The notes under the pieces are model-generated. The model was not told where the DNA came from and searched no databases. It saw only the letters and a list, made by a program, of their open reading frames with translations. This document shows positions 6,213 through 64,000 of a stretch of DNA of 64,000 nt, piece after piece. Location: positions 58,607,585-58,671,584 of the forward strand of contig NC_060251.1 in assembly GCF_921293095.1 (NCBI RefSeq), written 5' to 3'. A program made the translations under genes and the position numbers. The stretch comes from Ischnura elegans (taxonomy: Eukaryota; Arthropoda; Insecta; Odonata; Coenagrionidae). Numbering within the stretch: position 1 is the first letter of the stretch; every line of letters starts with the position of its first letter.

Positions 6213-6505
6213 GGGGATCGGGTTGGTGTGATAGCTTCTAACTCGGCGGGCTCGGGCTCAAATCCCGGCGGTGGCAGAGAATTTTCAGAGACTGCCCGAT
6301 CCATGCTTGAATGTTGTGTGGAGGACATTTCAAGCGCAACACTCCGTTCGTCGGATGGGACGTTAAACCGTGGTTCCTTTCGCGCCTTTCGTTAAGAGCA
6401 GGCTAATGCCGACGCCGGGTTTCCCTCCACCCTTCCTTACATACCCCTTCCCTCATGGCGGAAATGACCTCAGCTGTCGGTCGCCTCCTCCAAGTACAAT
6501 ACCAA
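6213..6505 (+). mobile_element. tRNA-derived SINE, family A, copy 1
   Basis: The head GGGGATCGGGTTGGTGTG is followed by a B-box-like GGCTCAAATCCC. The shared body contains GGCAGAGAATTTTCAGAGAC, TCGGATGGGACGTTAAACCG and TCGGTCGCCTCCTCCAAGTA. Three more copies lie at 27077-27353 (minus), 47284-47588 (minus) and 47745-48036 (plus). Flanks ACGAGAGAAA and ACGAGAGGAAA look like an imperfect target-site duplication. Confidence 0.88.
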
Positions 6506-7805: not shown

Positions 7806-8240
7806 ACTCGCACGCTCCGCGCGCTCGTTAAGGGGCTCCGCCCCTTAAAAACCCCGGTTCCGGCTTCGCCGTCTACATTTGTGGTCGCTCGAAGACTTTT
7901 AAAGTTCGAATAATCTCGCCTCAGCTAGGGGCCGGCTTCGCCGGCCAGGGGGTAGGGAGGCGCCCCACTCATTCCTCGAAACGGCTTCGCCGTTCCTCGC
8001 TGGAGGGCGACTTCGCCGCCCAGGGGTTGAGTGTGAGTTGAGATGGGTGGAGTCTACAGCGGCTGCGCCGCTTGAACGGCAGGGCGGCTTCGCCGCCCGA
8101 GGGTTACTGAAGCTCCCCCTCGCCTACGCCAGTCACTCCTCGGAACGGCTTCGCCGTTCATCGTTGTGGGGCGGCTTCGCCGCCTTGGGGTCGAGGAGCC
8201 CCCCCGCGGCTGCTCCGCTTAGTCCTCATTAATGCTCTTC
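7806..8240 (+). repeat. Cluster of GC-rich short hairpins with TTC loops (copy 1)
   Basis: At least eight perfect or near-perfect short hairpins lie here, most with the core GGC-TTC-GCC: GGCCGGC/GCCGGCC, AACGGC/GCCGTT, GGGCGGC/GCCGCCC, GAACGGC/GCCGTTC and GGCGGC/GCCGCC. There is also TTAAGGGGC/GCCCCTTAA with a TCC loop and AGCGGC/GCCGCT with a TGC loop. Base composition is sharply more GC-rich than the flanks. This style is commoner in organelle, plasmid and microbial DNA than in insect chromosomes. The same cluster recurs at 10009-10443. Confidence 0.85.
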
Positions 8241-8261
8241 TCCACCGAGAGGGGTGCCCAA

Positions 8262-9215
8262 GGGGATTCGGGGGTTTTAATGTGTCATGCATGCGGTCAC
8301 TAATCGTCCACAGTGATCACGTAGCGATGATTGTAAAGGGTAGTGCAATGCGGAGTAATAGTGGCGACAAGTACCCATAAAAGAAGACTTAATGGCACGT
8401 TTTTCATTTTTTGCGGGGGTTCCAACGGAATACCGGGGGGTTTATACTTGTGTTAAACCAGTGGTCACAAATCGTTCTCATAAATTCCGTGCCGATAAGT
8501 CGTAGGGGTCCGGAACAGTGGTCTGACGATTCTTTTACCTGGAGAGGCGATTTGTTAGAAATTTTTTGGGAGGTTTCACGGGGTTTTCGGGGGTTTTAAT
8601 AAGTGGTAGGGGCACCGGTTAAATTGTGACGAAAACTACTCGGAAAGGCGACTTTAAAATTCATTAATTTTTTTAGCGATGTTCCAGGAGGTGATCGGGG
8701 GTTTCTGGTATTTTTTCCCGTATGGTTTACGGTTGCTCGCCCTCACCTAATATTCCGGACCTAGACCTCAGAGGGGACGGGTAGTGTGGCGTAATGTTTG
8801 CGAGAAGTACCCAAATAGGAGACTAAATGACACATTTTACGTTTGGGAGGGATTTCAAGGGGATACCGGGGGTTTAAATGTGTGTACTCCTGGAGGTCAC
8901 CATCCATTTACATAAATTCCGTGGGGATGAGTCGTTGGGGGCGGTGGAATAGTCACGTAAAGTACCCAAAAAGTAGACTTATATGCAAAATTTTATTTTT
9001 TGGGGGGGTGTATGAGGGTTTACCGGGGGTTTATAGGTTTTTACTGCCAGCGGTCATCAATCGTCCACATCAATTCCGTAGCGATGAGTGGTAAGGATTA
9101 AAGAAGCGGCGGAATTGTGACGATAAGCACCCGAAAAGGCTACTTATATGAAAATTTTAATTTTTTAGGGGGTTTCGGGGGGTTTAAAGTTGACGATACT
9201 ATATGGTCACATTCA
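8262..9215 (+). repeat. Degenerate G-tract subrepeats, about 155-170 bp period (copy 1)
   Basis: Related blocks GGTCAC-AATCGT-CCACA followed by TAAATTCCGT-GCGATGAGTCGT occur at about 8296, 8463, 8898, 9051 and 9206, with a weaker one near 8725. Between them each unit carries AAGTACCC-AAAA, GACTTA-ATG, a T-rich run and runs of four to seven G (such as TACCGGGGGTTTA). The G runs have G-quadruplex potential on the plus strand. The matching block in the second copy is 10465-11418. Confidence 0.8.
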
Positions 9216-10008
9216 TTTACTGTCATTTCTAACAGAAGTGTGCCTTATGACATCCATATTTCGAGAGTAATACAATAAAAAGCAAACCAGTCCCCAAAAA
9301 AAGTGAGTAGTGCCCGCCATTTTTATTTTTTCGCGGTTAAATATATTGAATCATTTATTAAACGTTCATGTTTTCTGAAAGACAATAAAGAAGTGTATGT
9401 AACTACAAAGTTTGAAAGAAATCGGTCAGGTTAAAATTGCCATAATCTTCTATTAGTCTGTTGGAAATCGTAATTTTCGGTGATTTTCGGAATATTTTAA
9501 TTTTTTTCTGAGTAACCAAGGACGACGAAAGAAAATTGTTACCTTCATTTCGTAGACGATGTTATAAGCATATATAATAATCATTTTCGTTATCCTATAC
9601 CTTAAATTAAGTCGAAGGGAGCGGAAGTTATGAAATTTTATTCGAAAAACGAATTTTTGGACGCCATTTTGGCTGCAATTTTCTTAAAAAGAAATTAACA
9701 ACATTACGTAATTACGTGCCCACGTTCGTCAGCTTTCAGGAAATGCATTAGCGATCCGTGTGGCACACACCATTCGCGCGCAGTAAAATAAAAACCGAAA
9801 GACTGTCCCCGAAAAAAGCCCGATTTCGGCCATTTTGTCGTCCTAGCGACGACACGTGGCGGAAACTTCCGGTTTTCGGATTTTTCCTCCGGATCATTTC
9901 GGGTTCCCCGCACGCGTGCCAAATTTCAGCTCTCCAGCACTTCTAGAAGTGGTCGGGAATTTGTATCCATGAGTGAGTCAGTTACCTCAAGGGCTGTATA
10001 TAATAGAG

Positions 10009-12211
10009 ACTCGCACGCTCCGCGCGCTCGTTAAGGGGCTCCGCCCCTTAAAAACCCCGGTTCCGGCTTCGCCGTCTACATTTGTGGTCGCTCGAAGACT
10101 TTTAAAGTTCGAATAATCTCGCCTCAGCTAGGGGCCGGCTTCGCCGGCCAGGGGGTAGGGAGGCGCCCCACTCATTCCTCGAAACGGCTTCGCCGTTCCT
10201 CGCTGGAGGGCGACTTCGCCGCCCAGGGGTTGAGTGTGAGTTGAGATGGGTGGAGTCTACAGCGGCTGCGCCGCTTGAACGGCAGGGCGGCTTCGCCGCC
10301 CGAGGGTTACTGAAGCTCCCCCTCGCCTACGCCAGTCACTCCTCGGAACGGCTTCGCCGTTCATCGTTGTGGGGCGGCTTCGCCGCCTTGGGGTCGAGGA
10401 GCCCCCCCGCGGCTGCTCCGCTTAGTCCTCATTAATGCTCTTCTCCACCGAGAGGGGTGCCCAAGGGGATTCGGGGGTTTTAATGTGTCATGCATGCGGT
10501 CACTAATCGTCCACAGTGATCACGTAGCGATGATTGTAAAGGGTAGTGCAATGCGGAGTAATAGTGGCGACAAGTACCCATAAAAGAAGACTTAATGGCA
10601 CGTTTTTCATTTTTTGCGGGGGTTCCAACGGAATACCGGGGGGTTTATACTTGTGTTAAACCAGTGGTCACAAATCGTTCTCATAAATTCCGTGCCGATA
10701 AGTCGTAGGGGTCCGGAACAGTGGTCTGACGATTCTTTTACCTGGAGAGGCGATTTGTTAGAAATTTTTTGGGAGGTTTCACGGGGTTTTCGGGGGTTTT
10801 AATAAGTGGTAGGGGCACCGGTTAAATTGTGACGAAAACTACTCGGAAAGGCGACTTTAAAATTCATTAATTTTTTTAGCGATGTTCCAGGAGGTGATCG
10901 GGGGTTTCTGGTATTTTTTCCCGTATGGTTTACGGTTGCTCGCCCTCACCTAATATTCCGGACCTAGACCTCAGAGGGGACGGGTAGTGTGGCGTAATGT
11001 TTGCGAGAAGTACCCAAATAGGAGACTAAATGACACATTTTACGTTTGGGAGGGATTTCAAGGGGATACCGGGGGTTTAAATGTGTGTACTCCTGGAGGT
11101 CACCATCCATTTACATAAATTCCGTGGGGATGAGTCGTTGGGGGCGGTGGAATAGTCACGTAAAGTACCCAAAAAGTAGACTTATATGCAAAATTTTATT
11201 TTTTGGGGGGGTGTATGAGGGTTTACCGGGGGTTTATAGGTTTTTACTGCCAGCGGTCATCAATCGTCCACATCAATTCCGTAGCGATGAGTGGTAAGGA
11301 TTAAAGAAGCGGCGGAATTGTGACGATAAGCACCCGAAAAGGCTACTTATATGAAAATTTTAATTTTTTAGGGGGTTTCGGGGGGTTTAAAGTTGACGAT
11401 ACTATATGGTCACATTCATTTACTGTCATTTCTAACAGAAGTGTGCCTTATGACATCCATATTTCGAGAGTAATACAATAAAAAGCAAACCAGTCCCCAA
11501 AAAAAGTGAGTAGTGCCCGCCATTTTTATTTTTTCGCGGTTAAATATATTGAATCATTTATTAAACGTTCATGTTTTCTGAAAGACAATAAAGAAGTGTA
11601 TGTAACTACAAAGTTTGAAAGAAATCGGTCAGGTTAAAATTGCCATAATCTTCTATTAGTCTGTTGGAAATCGTAATTTTCGGTGATTTTCGGAATATTT
11701 TAATTTTTTTCTGAGTAACCAAGGACGACGAAAGAAAATTGTTACCTTCATTTCGTAGACGATGTTATAAGCATATATAATAATCATTTTCGTTATCCTA
11801 TACCTTAAATTAAGTCGAAGGGAGCGGAAGTTATGAAATTTTATTCGAAAAACGAATTTTTGGACGCCATTTTGGCTGCAATTTTCTTAAAAAGAAATTA
11901 ACAACATTACGTAATTACGTGCCCACGTTCGTCAGCTTTCAGGAAATGCATTAGCGATCCGTGTGGCACACACCATTCGCGCGCAGTAAAATAAAAACCG
12001 AAAGACTGTCCCCGAAAAAAGCCCGATTTCGGCCATTTTGTCGTCCTAGCGACGACACGTGGCGGAAACTTCCGGTTTTCGGATTTTTCCTCCGGATCAT
12101 TTCGGGTTCCCCGCACGCGTGCCAAATTTCAGCTCTCCAGCACTTCTAGAAGTGGTCGGGAATTTGTATCCATGAGTGAGTCAGTTACCTCAAGGGCTGT
12201 ATATAATAGAG
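10009..12211 (+). repeat. 2203-bp tandem unit, copy 2
   Basis: Head-to-tail repeat of 7806-10008 at an exact offset of 2203 bp. The right boundary is after TATAATAGAG at 12211, where the sequence changes to ATTACTATTGCG. The hairpin cluster is at 10009-10443 and the G-tract subrepeats at 10465-11418. Apparent identity of the copies implies a very recent duplication or an assembly duplication. Confidence 0.85.
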
Positions 12212-13044
12212 ATTACTATTGCGTGAAAAATATAGCATATATTTATTTTTACTCATTGAATGATCGAGTTTAAATCAAGTTAAAATTGATGATTTGTCGT
12301 CCACTTTTATCTTATTGTGGGGTTTTAGGGGCCAAAGAGACTGAAATTTCCTCAGAGATGACGTATATAATGTGAGCACAATTGATAGAGAAAATACGGA
12401 TTCCTCATACCATAGAGTTTATATTACTAGAGTGTAGAGTATTTATGCCTCATACTATGGCCGAAGGGCCTAGATATATCCCCTGATTGTTTCGTGTCGT
12501 GATAGCAATCTTAGCCCTAAAATTAGGGTGAGTTTTGGTTAAGATAGCGACCTTCTAATAGACAGTTTACCGAGAAAATAGCGTATGCTATATGAACAAC
12601 TGGATAAATTTCCTCGATGTAAAAAAGTTTCCCATTTAATTTTGCGGAAATTTTAGTTTGAAATAATTTTACTGTGATAAATGGAAGGAATGATGAATCA
12701 ATTGATAAAGGAAGATTTACAAAAATGTCAATTCTAAACGTTTTTATAAATTTTATCTTATGAGATAATTGGAAGATATTTATGGAGAGTTATTTTACGC
12801 TCAATCTGGTGGAATTTTGACGTATTAGTAGATTGTAAGTTTGTGAAAATTTTCCGCAAATACTTTAATTTTACCTCACTGCCGGTGTTAATATTTTTGA
12901 GTGTAATACAAAAATATGGAAACCGACTGCAAAGTAAAATTTAAGTATTTGTGGAATATCGATGATTAATTTTAGTATTTTTTTTCCTCTCGACCTCAAT
13001 GTTTAAAATTTATTAGTATCTTGGGGAAATTAAATGCAAATGTT
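12212..13044. other. Gene-free AT-rich stretch
   Basis: I see no coding domain, repeat pair or RNA gene here. Confidence 0.5.
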
Positions 13045-24905: not shown

Positions 24906-27076
24906 TTACTTTGAAATGTAATTATGTTAAGTATCTGCATTATATTGTTTTCATTAAAGATTAAAAAATAACACCACGAAAGACAGATTGGTTCTAAAAT
25001 GATAAATTTTCCTCCGTTCGTACCACACTATTTATTGCTAAAATTAACATAGATTCAACGGGAGTGAGAATGATGTGCTCGCACTCAAAAATTCCATCGC
25101 TGTCGGGCATGCTCGCAAGCCAGAAATCTCTCGACCCATTATATCTCTATGATTTTTACCCTTCGACTTTCATCTTTTATATTAATGTCTCTCCGAGAGA
25201 GGGGAAAAGAAAATGAATGTGTTCCTCTTGAATGGAAAGAAACGGAAGTTCGGCGTACGATTCCGAGTCAGGGATTAGGGGGGTGGGGGGTGGGAGGGGT
25301 GGGGTGTTTATTAGGGTGGGGAAGTGGAGGGGGAGGGGGGAAGCTGTGTCCTGGATCGTAAGGAGATTCTCTCCACCAAGCTCTCCCATCTCATAGGACG
25401 TATTTCTCGATCTCTTTCTTTAAAAAAATGTGCCAATATTCACGGAAAAATAAGATGTGTCTTTAGCTATCGAACACGTTGATTGGGGAGTATTTTTGTT
25501 AAATACGCTTAAATTTTGATTTCAATAATAAAAATCTCAATTTTTTTCTGCTAGTTTTTTTTTATCTTATCGAACATTTCGAAATTCCATAATTTGGGCA
25601 ATCGTACGATAGGGTTCGGCGAAAACAACTGCATACATTCGATACGATTTGGTTAGATATGCGATCATGAGACAAATACTACCTCTAAACCATCGTTTAA
25701 CTTCTGCGCTTACTATTTTGCACTTGTTCACTGGATTCTAATTCTCCGAAATAAGGCATTTGCCGGTATATATTATACAAATTCAAATGTAAAGACTTCA
25801 TTTTAACTTCATCATCCGATTGGCGGGAAATTAGCTTTAGGAATTATGCTCATCAGGTTTAAGAGAGGTGAAATCATTCTATTACTACTTTTCGATACTT
25901 AAATATCTTTATTACCTTTTAAATTGTAAGTTTGAGGATGAATTTTAAAAATAATAGAGATTTTTGGGATGAAGATTATTGTGGCATGATTTCTTAAGGT
26001 TATTTCCAATGGATCGTTAGCAAGAAATAGAGTTAATTCATTCAAATTTATTTGAGTACTAATTCCTTGTTTAATTTAAATTATAGGGAAGCACAATGGT
26101 AGTGACTTTCAAGCAGCTACAAATTTTTCTTGATTGTCATTCGTTCTGCTTCATCATTTCTGATGCTTGATGTTTTGTTTTTGATTTTCATGAAAGATAT
26201 TAAATATATTCTTACATTTTAACTGTCCAAAAAGCACAAATATCGATTCAGCCCAAATAGCGATCTAGCTCTACCTTTGCATTTTTACGCCTACGTTTTC
26301 CTATCACAGCCAGCGGTATTTTTTATATCGCGCAGAATTTCTTGTTTCAGTCGTATGATTTATTGTAATCCTTTCCTGCAGTTTTCCAATCCACCAGAAT
26401 AAGAATTTTCTCTTCCTTTTCAATCAACACACCTCCCGTCTTTTACTGATCCAAATCTTAGACGGCTTCAATATGTTTCTTAGTTCTCCTTAAGACTTCA
26501 TCCATTTTGTTTGCCTGAGAAATGTGTGAAGATGTGGAAGCAAAGAGAAGAATGAAGTTGTAAACTACTGAAAGAAATCCGTTTATGCGCTAGGAATTCT
26601 TCAAAGTAGAAAAAACATGGATTTCTCTGCTCTCCATGTTCTTTTAAAGGCTATTGAGTCGTTATTGGTTGTCATATCGTGTTTTCTCAGTCAGTGGTTT
26701 TGGGTAATTTCCCTTGAGAGGCGAGAAAACCTAACGTTGAAAAACACGAGGAACATTGATATGCTGAGCAAGGCTGAATATTTTTTGAATGTGATAGAGG
26801 CGTGAAACTTATTCTAGTTTCATTTTTATCCTCGTTTTAGTTGATAAGATAACTTTAAAATCGTCGCACTATAATTGAAGTGTTGACATGGGAAAGGCAG
26901 AAAGAAAAAAAAAACTCGAAATTTCGTTTTTGTCATGGAGAACGTAGTACATGCACATGTTACATGCATGCATTGCACATTGCACATGACAGTGGAATGG
27001 ACAAGGTAGAAAGTTAATTGGTACAATATATCTGTTGCTACGACTGACAAAGTTTGTACACTAAAATTGAATTTTC
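24906..27076. other. Gene-free stretch, mostly AT-rich
   Basis: Apart from the G-rich tract listed separately, I see only short open frames without domains (for example 26617-26805 and 26826-27050) and no repeat pair. Confidence 0.45.
25273..25343 (+). other. G-rich tract with strong G-quadruplex potential
   Basis: A dense series of G runs: GGGGGG, GGGGGG, GGG, GGGG, GGGG separated by single T or A, then further runs of GGG to GGGGGG. This meets the usual four-run, short-loop pattern several times over. Open frames across it translate into glycine or proline repeats and are not genes. Confidence 0.75.
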
Positions 27077-27353
27077 AGGAGGCGACCGACAGCCGAGGTC
27101 ATTTGCGCCAGGAGGGAAGGGTAGGTAAGGAAGGATGGAGAGAAACCCAGCGTCGGCATTAACCATCTCTTAACGAAAGGCGCCAAGGGGACCACGGCTT
27201 AACGTCCCATCCGACGGACTGCGTGTTGTGCTTGAAATTTCCTCCACATAGCATTCAAGCAGTCTCTGAAAATTCTCTGCCACCGCCGGGATTTGAACCC
27301 GAGCCCACGGAGTGGGAAGCCCACACTATAGCCACCACACCAACCCGATCCCC
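27077..27353 (-). mobile_element. tRNA-derived SINE, family A, copy 2
   Basis: Minus-strand copy. The head near 27353 reads GGGGATCGGGTTGGTGTGGT, the B-box-like GGTTCAAATCCC is at about 27289-27300, and the body ends GGTCGCCTCC near 27078. TACACTAA occurs on both sides (27056-27063 and about 27356-27363), a plausible target-site duplication. Confidence 0.88.
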
Positions 27354-33429: not shown

Positions 33430-34260
33430 AGGCTTTTAATAATGTATTTTCGATAACTTGAACCACAGTCATGTTTTTTAACTTGATAAAGTTTTTTGAT
33501 AGTGAAATGAATGATTTTATGTATAATACGATGGCAATGTTATCGTGACCGATTTTATGCCCGAAAATTCCTGCCTTTCTTTTCACATGATGCTATAAGT
33601 TATTAGAGACTCTCAATGGAATATTTAAAATTTCGATAATCTGAATCACAACCACGCCTTTTTTATAATTTGATAAAGATTTTTTAGATATTGAAATGAA
33701 TGATTTAACATATACTATACATATTACGATTACAAAGCTAGTCTACCCGGTTTTATGCACAAATATTCCTGCTATATTTTTTAGATATTGAAATAAATGA
33801 TTTAATATTTACTATACATACTACGATTACAAAGCTATTTCGTTTGATTTTATGCACAAATACTCCTGCTATATTTTTTGATATTAATATGAATGATTTA
33901 ATACCTACTATACATATTACTAGTAGAAAGCTATTATACCCGATTTTATGCGCAAATATTCCGGCTATATTTTTAGATATTGAAATAAACGATTTAATAT
34001 ATACTATACATATTACGATTACAAAGCTAGTCTACCCGGTTTTATGCACAAATACTCCTGCTATATTTTTTGATATTAATATGAATGATTTAATACCTAC
34101 TATACATATTACTAGTAGAAAGCTATTATACCCGATTTTATGCGCAAATATTCCGGCTATATTTTTAGATATTGAAATAAACGATTTAATATATACTATA
34201 CATATTACGATTATAAAGCTATTATACCCGATTTTATGCGCAATATTATTGCCTTCCTCC
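33430..34260 (+). repeat. 96-bp minisatellite with 192-bp higher-order period
   Basis: The phase marker G(A/G)TTTTATGC occurs at 33750, 33846, 33942, 34038, 34134 and 34230, each 96 bp apart. Units at 33846 and 34038 are nearly identical, as are 33942 and 34134, so an A-B-A-B higher-order unit of 192 bp is visible. More diverged units extend left to about 33430, with a marker at 33551. Because 96 is a multiple of three, the array stays open and gives a 174-codon frame (33844-34368) of near-identical 32-residue blocks. I read that as a by-product, not a gene. Confidence 0.9.
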
Positions 34261-34299
34261 TCACATCATGCAATAATATCGAAGAATACTCGCTCGGTT

Positions 34300-34864
34300 G
34301 CGCTTATCTTAGCTTCGGGCGCACGTTATACTCCGCGCAAGAAAACGAGATGGCGGAGGTCTCCATAAGATGAAACAGGGCGCACACGAGAGCACGGCTT
34401 TGGTGTATAGTGTGGCAGGAGGAGGAGAAGGAAGGAGTCGTGAGGGGAAGGTAATGTTGGGCTGGAGGGAAAAAGGCAAGGCAGACGATCTTTTCCAGCC
34501 AGGGCGGAAGAAGAAGTCGTAAAAAAATAAGGGGAAGAGATCCTTTCTTTCCCCACCCACCCCTGCCCATCCGGGAAAGAAGAGAGCAGAGTTTTTCCTG
34601 TGTATATATACTGTTGGTATTTGGCGTGAGGAGAGTGGGGGGATGGGGTTCAGGGGTATAGTGGAAGGGTCAGATAAGGGTATGGGAGTATGGTGGGATA
34701 TATAAGAGAGGAATCAGACGAGGCGGCTTGCGGTTTGGGTCAGGGTGAGTTTTTTGGGGTGGGCATTTTAGGGGATGTGTGGGTGGTCTGAGGTCGGGTC
34801 GGATGTGCTGAGGGGAGGAATGGGGAAAACAGATAGGGACGGGAGGATTTTTTTTGTGTGCGGG
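34300..34864. other. Purine-rich (plus strand) stretch
   Basis: The plus strand is dominated by G and A, with a YY1-like GAGATGGCGGAGG at about 34348-34360 and GGGTCAGGGTG-type blocks. Minus-strand frames (34304-34570 and others) are proline/leucine/serine-rich translations of the tract. It could be regulatory but no target can be shown. Confidence 0.5.
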
Positions 34865-47283: not shown

Positions 47284-47588
47284 GTATGGTATGGTATTTG
47301 AGGAGGCGACCGACAGCTGAGGACATTTGCGCCATGAGGGAAGGGTAGGTAAGGAAGGGAGGAGAGAAACCTGGCGTCGGCATTAGCCTGCTCTTTACGA
47401 AAGGCGCCAAGGGGACCTCAGCTTAACGTCCCATCCGACGGACGGAGTGTTGCGCTTGAAATATCCTCCACACAACATTCAAGCAGGGATGGGCAGTCTC
47501 TGAAAATTCTCTGCTGCTGCCGGGATTTGAACCCGGGCCCACCGGGTGGGAAGCCAACACTCTAGCCACCACACCAACCCGATCCCCT
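47284..47588 (-). mobile_element. tRNA-derived SINE, family A, copy 3, with 15-bp TSD
   Basis: Minus-strand copy. Head GGGGATCGGGTTGGTGTGGT near 47587, B-box-like GGTTCAAATCCC near 47522-47533, and a 3' end that on the minus strand closes with repeated ATACC units. It is flanked by the perfect direct repeat GTCAAACCTTTCTTG at 47269-47283 and 47589-47603, a classic target-site duplication of LINE-mediated insertion. The intact duplication suggests a fairly young insertion. Confidence 0.93.
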
Positions 47589-47744: not shown

Positions 47745-48036
47745 TGGGGATCAGGTTGCTGTGGTGGTTAGAGTGTTGGCTTTCCAATCCACGGGTGCAA
47801 ATCCTAGCGGTGGCAGAGAATTTTCAGAGACTGCTAGATCCTTGGTTGAATGACGTGTGGAGGGTATTTTGAGCGCAAAACTCTGTCTGTCGGATGGGAC
47901 GTTAAGCCGTGGTCCCCTTGGCGCCTATCGTTAAGAGCTGGCTAATGCCAACGCCGAGTTTTTCTCCACCCTTCCTTACCTAACCTTCCCTCATGATGGC
48001 TCGCAGATGTCGGTCGCCTCCTCCGAATACCATACC
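47745..48036 (+). mobile_element. tRNA-derived SINE, family A, copy 4, with 10-bp TSD
   Basis: Plus-strand copy with GGGGATCAGGTTGCTGTGGT head, shared body and end CTCCGAATACCATACC. It is flanked by AAGATTAATG at 47735-47744 and 48037-48046. Copies 3 and 4 face opposite ways only about 150 bp apart. Confidence 0.92.
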
Positions 48037-48189
48037 AAGATTAATGAAGGAACGATTCAACAAAAATCACTGGGAATTTTAGTGCCAGTGATTCTTGTCG
48101 CATTTTCTGAAACTTTCAGTTTCGCATTGTGAAAAAAATGCTATGAATATATAATAAGCCTAAATATGTGAATTGTATGTGGAGACGAA

Positions 48190-54257: not shown

Positions 54258-54761
54258 TCAGGTGACTGCTGATTGGCTGTCGTCAGCGGCATGCTCTGAT
54301 TGGTGGTTTTGCCTAGCCTTTTGTATAGTCTTGAGCACAGGTTTCCAGGTGCTGCTCAGAGCATATCCGGAGTCTCTATTGATGGTATTCTTAGACAGTC
54401 TAATTTCAATAGACTCTTTAATGAGTCGATCCCAAAAGCCATTGGATCGGCATAGCATCTTGGTGTCGTCAAACTTAACAGTATTTTTGCATTCCATCCA
54501 ATGCTCTGCGATGGCTGACTTTTCGGGCTGTCCTAGGCGGAGGTGGCGCTTATGTTCTTTGAGCCGCGTGTCTATAGTGCGGCCCGTCTCACCGATGTAT
54601 ATTTTCCCGCACCCACATGGCACTTGGTAAACGCCAGGTGTCTTCAAGTGCGTTTGGTGCGTCTGATATGCGCTTGGCACAACATATACGAATTTTGCCG
54701 TCGAAAAGGCAAATTTGAGTAAAAATATCATATAAGACCAGTCATCGCATCTATGTCGCAT
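54258..54761 (-). pseudogene. Penelope-like retroelement, GIY-YIG endonuclease domain (5'-truncated)
   Basis: Encodes the C-terminal endonuclease of a Penelope-like element (PLE), the enzyme that nicks target DNA for reverse transcription. In the open frame the domain runs from about residue 40. It shows GVY at 43-45 and YIG at 55-57 (the GIY-YIG pair), a PLE-typical CGC at 49-51 between them, GETGR at 57-61, the conserved Arg at 66 in TRLKEHKR, and a conserved downstream SAIAEHW. The reverse transcriptase that should precede it is absent: sequence upstream of about residue 35 is not PLE-like and the ATG is fortuitous. So this is a 5'-truncated copy. The domain itself is uninterrupted, suggesting moderate age. 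A Penelope-type terminal motif follows within about 60 bp of the stop. Confidence 0.88.
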
Positions 54762-62802: not shown

Positions 62803-63366
62803 TCACTTCCTCCCCTTGCTGCACCCTGACCTCCGCACCTTCCCGCCTGCCGCCCTGCCTACCGGCATCTCGTCCGCACCCTCGACCGCACCCCCAGCCA
62901 CGCCCACCTCCTCCTCCCGCTCGTCCTCGTCCTTGTCCTGGTGTGCGGTCATGTGCCGCGTCAGGTGATGCCGCTCCCGGAACGTCTCCGCGCACACCGG
63001 GCACCTCAGCATCTTGCTCTCCTCCCTGCGTCTCCGTGCCGCAGCCGAGGCTTCCGCTCCCGCGCCCGCGACGCCGCCTCCGAGGCCGACGGCGGCCGCT
63101 GCAGCCGCAGCCGCTGCGGCCTCCCCTTTGTGCTGCGAGCGCATGTGGTAGACGAGGTCGGAGGTCATGCGGAAGGAGACGTTGCACTTGGCGCAGACGT
63201 TCTGCGCGGAGGGCAGGCCCAAGGCGGCCAGGGAAGCTGGGAGGACCGAGGAGGCCACCGCGGCCAGGTTGGCTGCGGCGGCGAGGTTGGCGGCGGCTGC
63301 GTACGGGTAGCTGACGAGCCCCGCCGATTCTGGGTGGTATCCTGGCACAATCCCACCGGCCCGCAC
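62803..63366 (-). CDS. PRDM8-like: C2H2 zinc-finger protein of PRDM8/ZNF488 type, last coding exon
   Basis: A 187-codon terminal exon ending at TGA 62805-62803. The first codon is GTG directly after a splice acceptor (AACCAG), so the true start lies in upstream exons beyond the window and the exon begins in phase 0. Finger 1 spans residues 58-79 (CAKCNVSFRMTSDLVYHM, with C58, C61, H74, H79). Finger 2 spans 122-142 (CPVCAETFRERHHLTRHM, with C122, C125, H138, H142). The spacer has a run of ten alanines and a basic RRRREESK. The tail after finger 2 is acidic then basic and longer than the few residues I recall in vertebrate PRDM8. The SFRMTSDLVYHMRS and FRERHHL-RHM signatures are those of the C-terminal finger pair of PRDM8 and ZNF488, nuclear transcriptional regulators acting with histone-modifying partners. 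The PR/SET part and any earlier finger would be upstream. The exon is very GC- and CpG-rich compared with the rest of the window. Confidence 0.88.
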   Translation of the reverse strand: MRAGGIVPGYHPESAGLVSYPYAAAANLAAAANLAAVASSVLPASLAALGLPSAQNVCAKCNVSFRMTSDLVYHMRSQHKGEAAAAAAAAAAVGLGGGVAGAGAEASAAARRRREESKMLRCPVCAETFRERHHLTRHMTAHQDKDEDEREEEVGVAGGAVEGADEMPVGRAAGGKVRRSGCSKGRK

Positions 63367-63390
63367 CTGGTTAAATAAATTAAGATAAAT
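63367..63390 (-). promoter_or_regulatory. Splice acceptor of the zinc-finger exon
   Basis: Minus strand: TTTATCTTAATTTATTTAACC then AG at 63368-63367. It is T-rich with a branch-point-like TTAAT. It sets the exon start at 63366 and explains why no ATG is needed there. Confidence 0.7.
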
Positions 63391-64000
63391 TAAAATATGC
63401 AGAAAATGTATTACCAGACTTGGTATGGAGAGAAAAATCTCTATAGCATCACCTCACATTGGCTGGTCCTCTCTTTCTCGTGAAAAATTAAATTAACTCT
63501 TCCTGACCCTACGTGAAATAGTTCATAATGTAGGGCGAATATTTTCTCAAGCCTGGCATCTACTTTTACTTGAGCACAAAGAGTGTAAATCAGCAATAAA
63601 GAAAAATGCAGTGCCTGATGTGGTACAGAATATGTACAGCATCCTATACAACCTCCCCAGTAAACATACATTTAGAAGAGCCTTAGGTTGTTATTTACGT
63701 TTACCACTGCAGTTGACCATTAGTCCGGCATGACCATTGCTTTGTTTAGCATCCAAAGCATAATAAACACCTTACTTAAATTTAATATACTTCTAGTTAA
63801 AACTCTTCAAGCAAATGGCCACGTCTCTGAGATTAACTTTGAATGAATCTACTGAGTCAAAGCGTTTTGATTGGTGATATGATTTTTAGGATGCTAAGTG
63901 TATTATTTTGTACATGCTACAGTCATCGAAATACCTTACGTTGCTTGGATGGGTGGATTTGAATGTGCGAAAGAGATGTGAATGAACGAACACAAGTAAG
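63391..64000 (-). other. Intron upstream of the last zinc-finger exon
   Basis: Expected intron of the minus-strand gene. No further exon is recognisable before the window ends. It contains repeat M copy 2 at 63700-63850. Confidence 0.5.
63700..63850 (+). repeat. Diverged repeat M, copy 2
   Basis: GACCATTAGTCCGGCA, GACCATTGC, AGCATCCAAAGC, TTCTAGTTAAAACTCTTCAA and GGCCACGTCTCTGAG align with 62305-62440. The pair sits in direct orientation on either side of the exon. Confidence 0.75.

Follow-up and report, generated by a model that had tools for sequence, protein, structure and literature searches.

In the 64,000-nucleotide (nt) window of Ischnura elegans contig NC_060251.1 analyzed here, positions 7807-12212 very probably hold a non-autonomous Helitron-like rolling-circle transposon, which lies on the minus strand and occupies an A|T target as two perfect head-to-tail copies. 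The element is an exact dimer of a unit that begins with TC, is flanked by an A and a T and has two hairpins at its 3' end, with eight more hairpins of the C(GNA)G type upstream on the same strand. An initial annotation of this stretch had listed several possible origins, the first being a non-autonomous mobile element spread by a rolling-circle or recombination route; this option, in its rolling-circle form, is the best supported of those listed, and the interpretation as a whole stands in part.

The tandem repeat

The repeat has a period of 2203, and positions 7806-10009 match 10009-12212 base for base in an offset self-comparison, giving an exact run of 2,204 nt. This run is one period plus a single shared A, which on the plus strand is found at all three edges (7806, 10009 and 12212). 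Outside the repeat, identity at offset 2203 is 18-38% (mean 26%; 233 bins of 250 nt wholly outside), and both edges of the repeat are therefore sharp. The 2203-base-pair (bp) head-to-tail duplication with no visible difference, as first described, is borne out by the exact run, and the coordinates then given, 7806-12211, were right to within one base. No copy beyond these two was found in the window, either by self-comparison or by searching for the ends at up to 3 mismatches. From the identity of the copies it follows only that the event happened recently or was followed by homogenisation. In the Helitron-like reading the element spans 7807-12212 and consists of the following units.

7807..10009, minus strand: probable Helitron-like unit, 3'-most copy of the dimer; sense runs from 10009 to 7807; defined by the exact repeat, sequence and flanks
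10010..12212, minus strand: probable Helitron-like unit, 5'-most copy of the dimer; sense runs from 12212 to 10010; identical to the other copy

Termini and target site

On the minus strand the unit reads TCTCTATTATATA…TTAAGGGGCGGAGCCCCTTAACGAGCGCGCGGAGCGTGCGAG in both copies alike, starting with TCTCTATTATATACAGCCC and ending with CGCGCGGAGCGTGCGAG. Although the initial annotation recognised no transposon ends, such ends exist on the minus strand in the form of a 5' TC (a canonical Helitron mark), an A|T target and 3' subterminal hairpins.

12194..12212, minus strand: 5' terminus TCTCTATTATATACAGCCC; second copy at 9991-10009; these two are the only matches in the window at 3 or fewer mismatches (0.03 expected)
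7807..7829, minus strand: 3' terminus AACGAGCGCGCGGAGCGTGCGAG; other copy at 10010-10032; these two are the only matches in the window at 3 or fewer mismatches (0.00 expected)
12213..12213, minus strand: host A (T on the plus strand) before the 5' end; A|T target
7806..7806, minus strand: host T (A on the plus strand) after the 3' end; A|T target
10009..10010, minus strand: head-to-tail junction GCGAG|TCTC between the units, from the sequence
7828..7848, minus strand: 3' subterminal hairpin TTAAGGGGC-GGA-GCCCCTTAA with a 9-bp stem; other copy at 10031-10051; ends 21 nt from the 3' end
7810..7824, minus strand: terminal hairpin GCGCGC-GGA-GCGTGC, 6 pairs with one G-T; other copy at 10013-10027; ends 3 nt from the 3' end

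Because the sense-strand flanks end in ...CAATAGTAA upstream of the dimer and begin with TTGAATATC downstream, the insertion falls between A and T, and the target at this one locus is GTAA|TTGA. A search for flank repeats of 1-11 nt at the same locus found no target duplication. Nor was a terminal inverted repeat found: the best match between the first and last 60 nt is 9 of 15, while an ungapped comparison of the first and last 120 nt gives at best 9/12 and 10/15, with shuffle means of 9.2 and 10.3. Three inverted pairs were detected in the sequence, none of them a subterminal or asymmetric terminal repeat of 12-16 bp.

How often such ends arise by chance can be gauged from the window itself. 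All 123,000 frames of 2,203 nt on both strands were tested, the stem criterion being at least 7 bp, with at least 5 G or C, within the last 45 nt. A|TC at one end together with a T past the other occurs in 644 of the 123,000 frames. With the GC-rich stem added, two frames are left: 10010-12212 on the minus strand, which is the unit, and 8161-10363 on the plus strand, which straddles the repeat and uses its hairpins. No frame outside the element qualifies. The edges of the unit were set by the repeat and not by a motif search, and we estimate the probability of A|TC…|T alone arising by chance at about 2% (4 x 0.5%, for two registers and two strands), and as far smaller with the hairpin.

The hairpin zone

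The 3' end of the unit is rich in small hairpins, which were scanned for as triloops with a stem of at least 4 bp and with 3 or more G or C among its inner four positions, other loop sizes not being counted.

7807..8229, minus strand: hairpin zone, last 423 nt of the unit; other copy at 10010-10432; from the triloop-hairpin scan

The zone contains 15 triloop hairpins. Ten of them have the form C(GNA)G when read along the sense strand (loops GAA 7, GCA 1 and GGA 2), and none has the complementary C(TNC)G. In 1,000 shuffles, C(GNA)G averaged 0.14 and reached at most 2. The first 1,780 nt of the unit have 4 triloop hairpins (0 C(GNA)G, 1 C(TNC)G), and the rest of the window has 57, among which its plus strand shows 4 C(GNA)G but 0 C(TNC)G. 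The density of C(GNA)G is thus the distinctive trait of the zone. The heptamer GCGAAGC is found 6 times on the sense strand of the unit and not at all on the other; the 59.6 kilobases outside have 3 and 2. Published work describes DNA mini-hairpins with GNA loops as having extraordinary stability and resisting nucleases; GCGAAGC melts at 78 C (PMC4686876).

For a comparison of stems, the ten hairpins were trimmed to 15 nt, giving 8 distinct sequences. Four of the six stem pairs are changed on both sides, a number reached by 16 of 500 shuffles. A covariation score of 0.583, where shuffles give 0.197, was reached by none of the 500; the number of pair types was reached by 23 of the 500. Our literature searches found nothing that joins Helitrons to GNA loops, mini-hairpins or multiple hairpins, and nothing that joins Helitron and TCTCTA. 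Among the matches listed for GGCGAAGCC and transposition, none is on Helitrons by title and one is on REP-associated transposases.

Composition and coding capacity

The unit has a GC content of 46%, and the rest of the window 38%. Along the sense strand, GC rises from 38% (nt 1-850) through 45% (851-1780) to 65% (1781-2203). Because unit-length stretches of the rest of the window, sampled every 500 nt, span 30% to 50%, the GC of the whole unit is unremarkable; what stands apart is the hairpin zone.

The initial annotation saw no coding capacity. The longest stop-to-stop frame in the unit is 109 amino acids (aa), and none of the five scanned among the longer frames (109, 89, 87, 76 and 73 aa; others, of 80 aa and less, were left out) has a Pfam match at E<=0.1. 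At the gathering score, no Rfam family was found in the whole window, and no tRNA gene was found there with bacterial settings, a result that speaks against a tRNA-derived origin. The middle of the unit is a zone of degenerate sub-repeats.

8256..9330, minus strand: G-tract zone (C-tracts on the sense strand), sense nt ~680-1754; other copy at 10459-11533; ~7 degenerate sub-repeats

The C-tracts of these sub-repeats are the G-runs of the initial annotation. With unit limits set by hand, the sub-repeats are 108-171 bp long (mostly ~160 bp, one merely 108 bp) and 45-72% alike; judged by this divergence, they are much older than the dimer.

Comparison with known rolling-circle systems

A canonical Helitron enters between an A and a T without duplicating its target, begins with TC and has a 3' palindrome (PMC4067079). 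Further marks are a 3' CTRR, a hairpin of 16-20 nt some 10-15 nt from the 3' end, and no terminal inverted repeats (PMC4067079, PMC13286980). The unit shares the TC, the A|T target and the lack of both duplication and inverted repeats; its hairpin position is irregular and CTRR is missing. The canonical Helitron (Helitron1), with non-autonomous insect members such as Hel-2/BmHel-2 (PMC4344730) and the Hel1A-like family (PMC6544945), has in common with it the 5' TC, the A|T target with no duplication and a 3' stem-loop; the insect members share its lack of autonomy, and Hel-2 likewise has an internal tandem repeat (PMC4344730). Unlike all of these, the unit ends in CGAG in place of CTRR, has ten C(GNA)G hairpins and forms a dimer, and at ~2.2 kilobases it is larger than the Hel-2 consensus (250 bp) and the Csup_Hel1 consensus sequences (162-257 bp) (PMC4344730, PMC6544945).

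For the mechanism, a comparison can be made with Helraiser, the autonomous Helibat1 element of bats. In its circles the 3' end is fused precisely and directly to the 5' TC (PMC4778049), and the GCGAG|TCTC junction is the same kind of joint. The plus strand alone is transposed (PMC5876387), and the 3' hairpin is a terminator that can be bypassed (PMC4778049, PMC5876387). Changing the loop (with its closing pair) or substituting the whole hairpin of another element was about as harmful as deleting the hairpin, an exchanged stem retained ~90% of activity, and circles formed independently of the hairpin (PMC4778049). In both systems a hairpin lies near the 3' end; loop identity matters in Helraiser, and here too the loop class is constant and the stems vary on both sides. 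Helraiser differs in ending in CTAG, in its single 19-bp palindrome, which has a different loop and lies 11 nt from the end, and in being autonomous (PMC4778049, PMC5876387). Plant and bat genomes contain both head-to-tail Helitron junctions and tandem arrays (PMC5876387), so that a dimer in itself is behaviour already known. Xuan1, an active non-autonomous Helitron of wheat, is likewise of similar size (2,513 bp) and without a transposase, prefers AT dinucleotides and forms circles; it differs in its CTAG end, in having a single hairpin, of 17 nt, that lies 11 nt from this end, and in that its authors detected no genomic tandem copies (PMC13286980).

Helentron, HINE and Helitron2 elements belong to the same rolling-circle class, have hairpins near their termini and in some cases internal tandem repeats. 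They differ in their subterminal or asymmetric inverted repeats (12-16 bp) and their T-rich, TT or TNAT|T targets (PMC4067079, PMC5148889). An assignment to this group is rejected on the GTAA|TTGA target (at one locus) and on the lack of any inverted match beyond shuffles in the 120-nt ends. In Metarhizium acridum, three copies were found in tandem, and the authors proposed the same two routes that we set out below (PMC5148889). A silkworm study notes Helitron-like families without TC and CTRR marks, which its own search missed (PMC3789558). Bacterial REP palindromes and their RAYT transposases are a lead only: GGCGAAGCC appears in a paper on them (PMC2817692), and the palindromes are tied to a single-strand transposase, but they are bacterial and dispersed.

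Weighing the reading

Several points count against a Helitron-like element. The 3' end is CGAG in both copies; canonical CTRR was tested for and is not there, and we therefore call the unit a Helitron-like variant, taken to work as a Helitron does, and do not file it as a canonical member. The subterminal hairpin, 21 nt long, stops 21 nt short of the 3' end instead of 10-15, the 15-nt hairpin stops 3 nt short of it, and the one-nucleotide ambiguity at the edges permits a second parse. GC over the whole unit is within the range of the window, and no Rep/helicase remnant was found by Pfam in the five unit frames. Neither a further locus nor an empty site nor an autonomous partner came to light in the window or in the phage, plasmid, prokaryotic and viral collections. 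The GNA array is no general Helitron mark, because the Helraiser loop is not GNA and its hairpin is dispensable for circles. Within the array, five of the 15 triloops are not C(GNA)G (four with 4-bp stems, plus one other register of the terminal hairpin) and one of the ten C(GNA)G hairpins has merely a 4-bp stem. The absence of the complement is in itself weak, because the rest of the window also lacks C(TNC)G. Two of the five covariation measures are less clear (those reached by 16 and 23 of 500 shuffles), and because the hairpins were chosen for pairing, covariation means that stems diverged while the loop type was kept, and is no independent proof of folding. All ten hairpins may descend from a single palindrome, and such an origin would account for their lying on one strand with no need of selection.

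Relatives of the unit were sought in phage, plasmid, viral and prokaryotic collections. DNA similarity gave 0 matches in phages and 0 in plasmids, and end patterns gave 0 in prokaryotic genome contigs (2 patterns) and 0 in viral contigs (5 patterns, near-exact ends being needed). Since animal genomes are not what these collections cover, the lack of matches tells little about distribution; the foreign origin that had been suggested receives no support from them.

Of the other explanations, an assembly artefact fares best and is still improbable. Here a single genomic Helitron-like copy would have gained its second from the assembler, for example from reads of circular or tandem copies elsewhere. 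The 100% identity of the copies over 2,203 bp is what this predicts; the artefact is nonetheless unlikely because both repeat edges coincide exactly with the inferred transposon termini, a placement that overlap error does not favour, and the junction is a natural end-to-end joint.

Less probable still is a circle integrated by a site-specific recombinase (a Crypton-like or serine-recombinase element), which would also produce tandem copies. One base (A on the plus strand) is common to all three junctions, as a recombination core would be, but this core is just 1 nt where several bases are expected, and to our knowledge one base is shorter than any that site-specific recombinases use. Nor does this reading account for the 5' TC, the A|T target or the 3' hairpins, and the five frames scanned with Pfam gave no recombinase match, though a non-autonomous element would have none.

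We regard it as very improbable that a small circular single-stranded DNA virus, or its satellite, has integrated here as a concatemer. In favour of this, genomes of that kind commonly show head-to-tail multimers and stable hairpins. Set against it, the five Pfam-scanned frames gave no replication or capsid match, the phage search and the five viral-contig pattern scans gave no match at all (near-exact ends being needed in the latter), and the internal sub-repeats are old and degenerate. Least probable of all is an incipient satellite that arose through unequal exchange and not from a transposon, which would account for identical tandem units and internal sub-repeats, but unequal exchange requires a pre-existing duplication and would not set both edges on A|TC and the 3' hairpin end.

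Other features of the window

A dispersed repeat of ~290 bp has four copies, 79-87% alike (6213-6504, 27073-27353, 47287-47587 and 47746-48037), those near 47.3-48.0 kilobases being mutually inverted. A tandem array at 33679-34247 has a 96-bp unit and higher periods of 192 bp and 288 bp, with 84-91% matches, and is overlapped by a 208-aa stop-to-stop frame at 33742-34368. Two minus-strand frames gave domain matches. The first, at 54258-54761, matches GIY-YIG weakly (E 6e-4, 20.5 bits versus the curated 22.6) and is probably a retroelement remnant; the second, at 62803-63453, lies in GC-rich sequence, has two C2H2 zinc-finger stretches (E 1.2e-7) and is likely a host-gene exon.

Proposed mechanism and implications

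In the Helitron-like reading, a Rep/helicase supplied by an autonomous relative would nick at the 5' TC and peel off the sense strand, and the 3' hairpins would normally halt replication at the CGAG end. The dimer could then arise by two routes. One round may have run past the first stop and halted at the second; alternatively, a second copy may have inserted at the A|T recreated by the 5' edge of the first, where the host A meets the T of TC. Run-through and re-insertion both yield exactly this structure, and sequence alone cannot separate them. Once displaced as a single strand, the row of GNA mini-hairpins would fold, and it could act as an extended stop or strand-processing signal.

A more speculative proposal, to which we give about one chance in several, is that the unit represents a Helitron variant in which CGAG replaces CTRR and the stop hairpin has expanded into ten strand-specific C(GNA)G hairpins. 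These would form an exceptionally stable tail on the transferred strand that signals the end or starts second-strand synthesis, and a leaky CGAG would favour run-through and so dimers able to seed satellites. If this is true, screens that demand CTRR would miss the family. Exact, recent Helitron-like dimers bear on how such elements multiply in place, on the possible seeding of satellites, and on run-through versus re-insertion. The strand-specific mini-hairpins, with their constant loop class and varying stems, amount to a testable statement on the displaced strand and on how the terminator is recognised.

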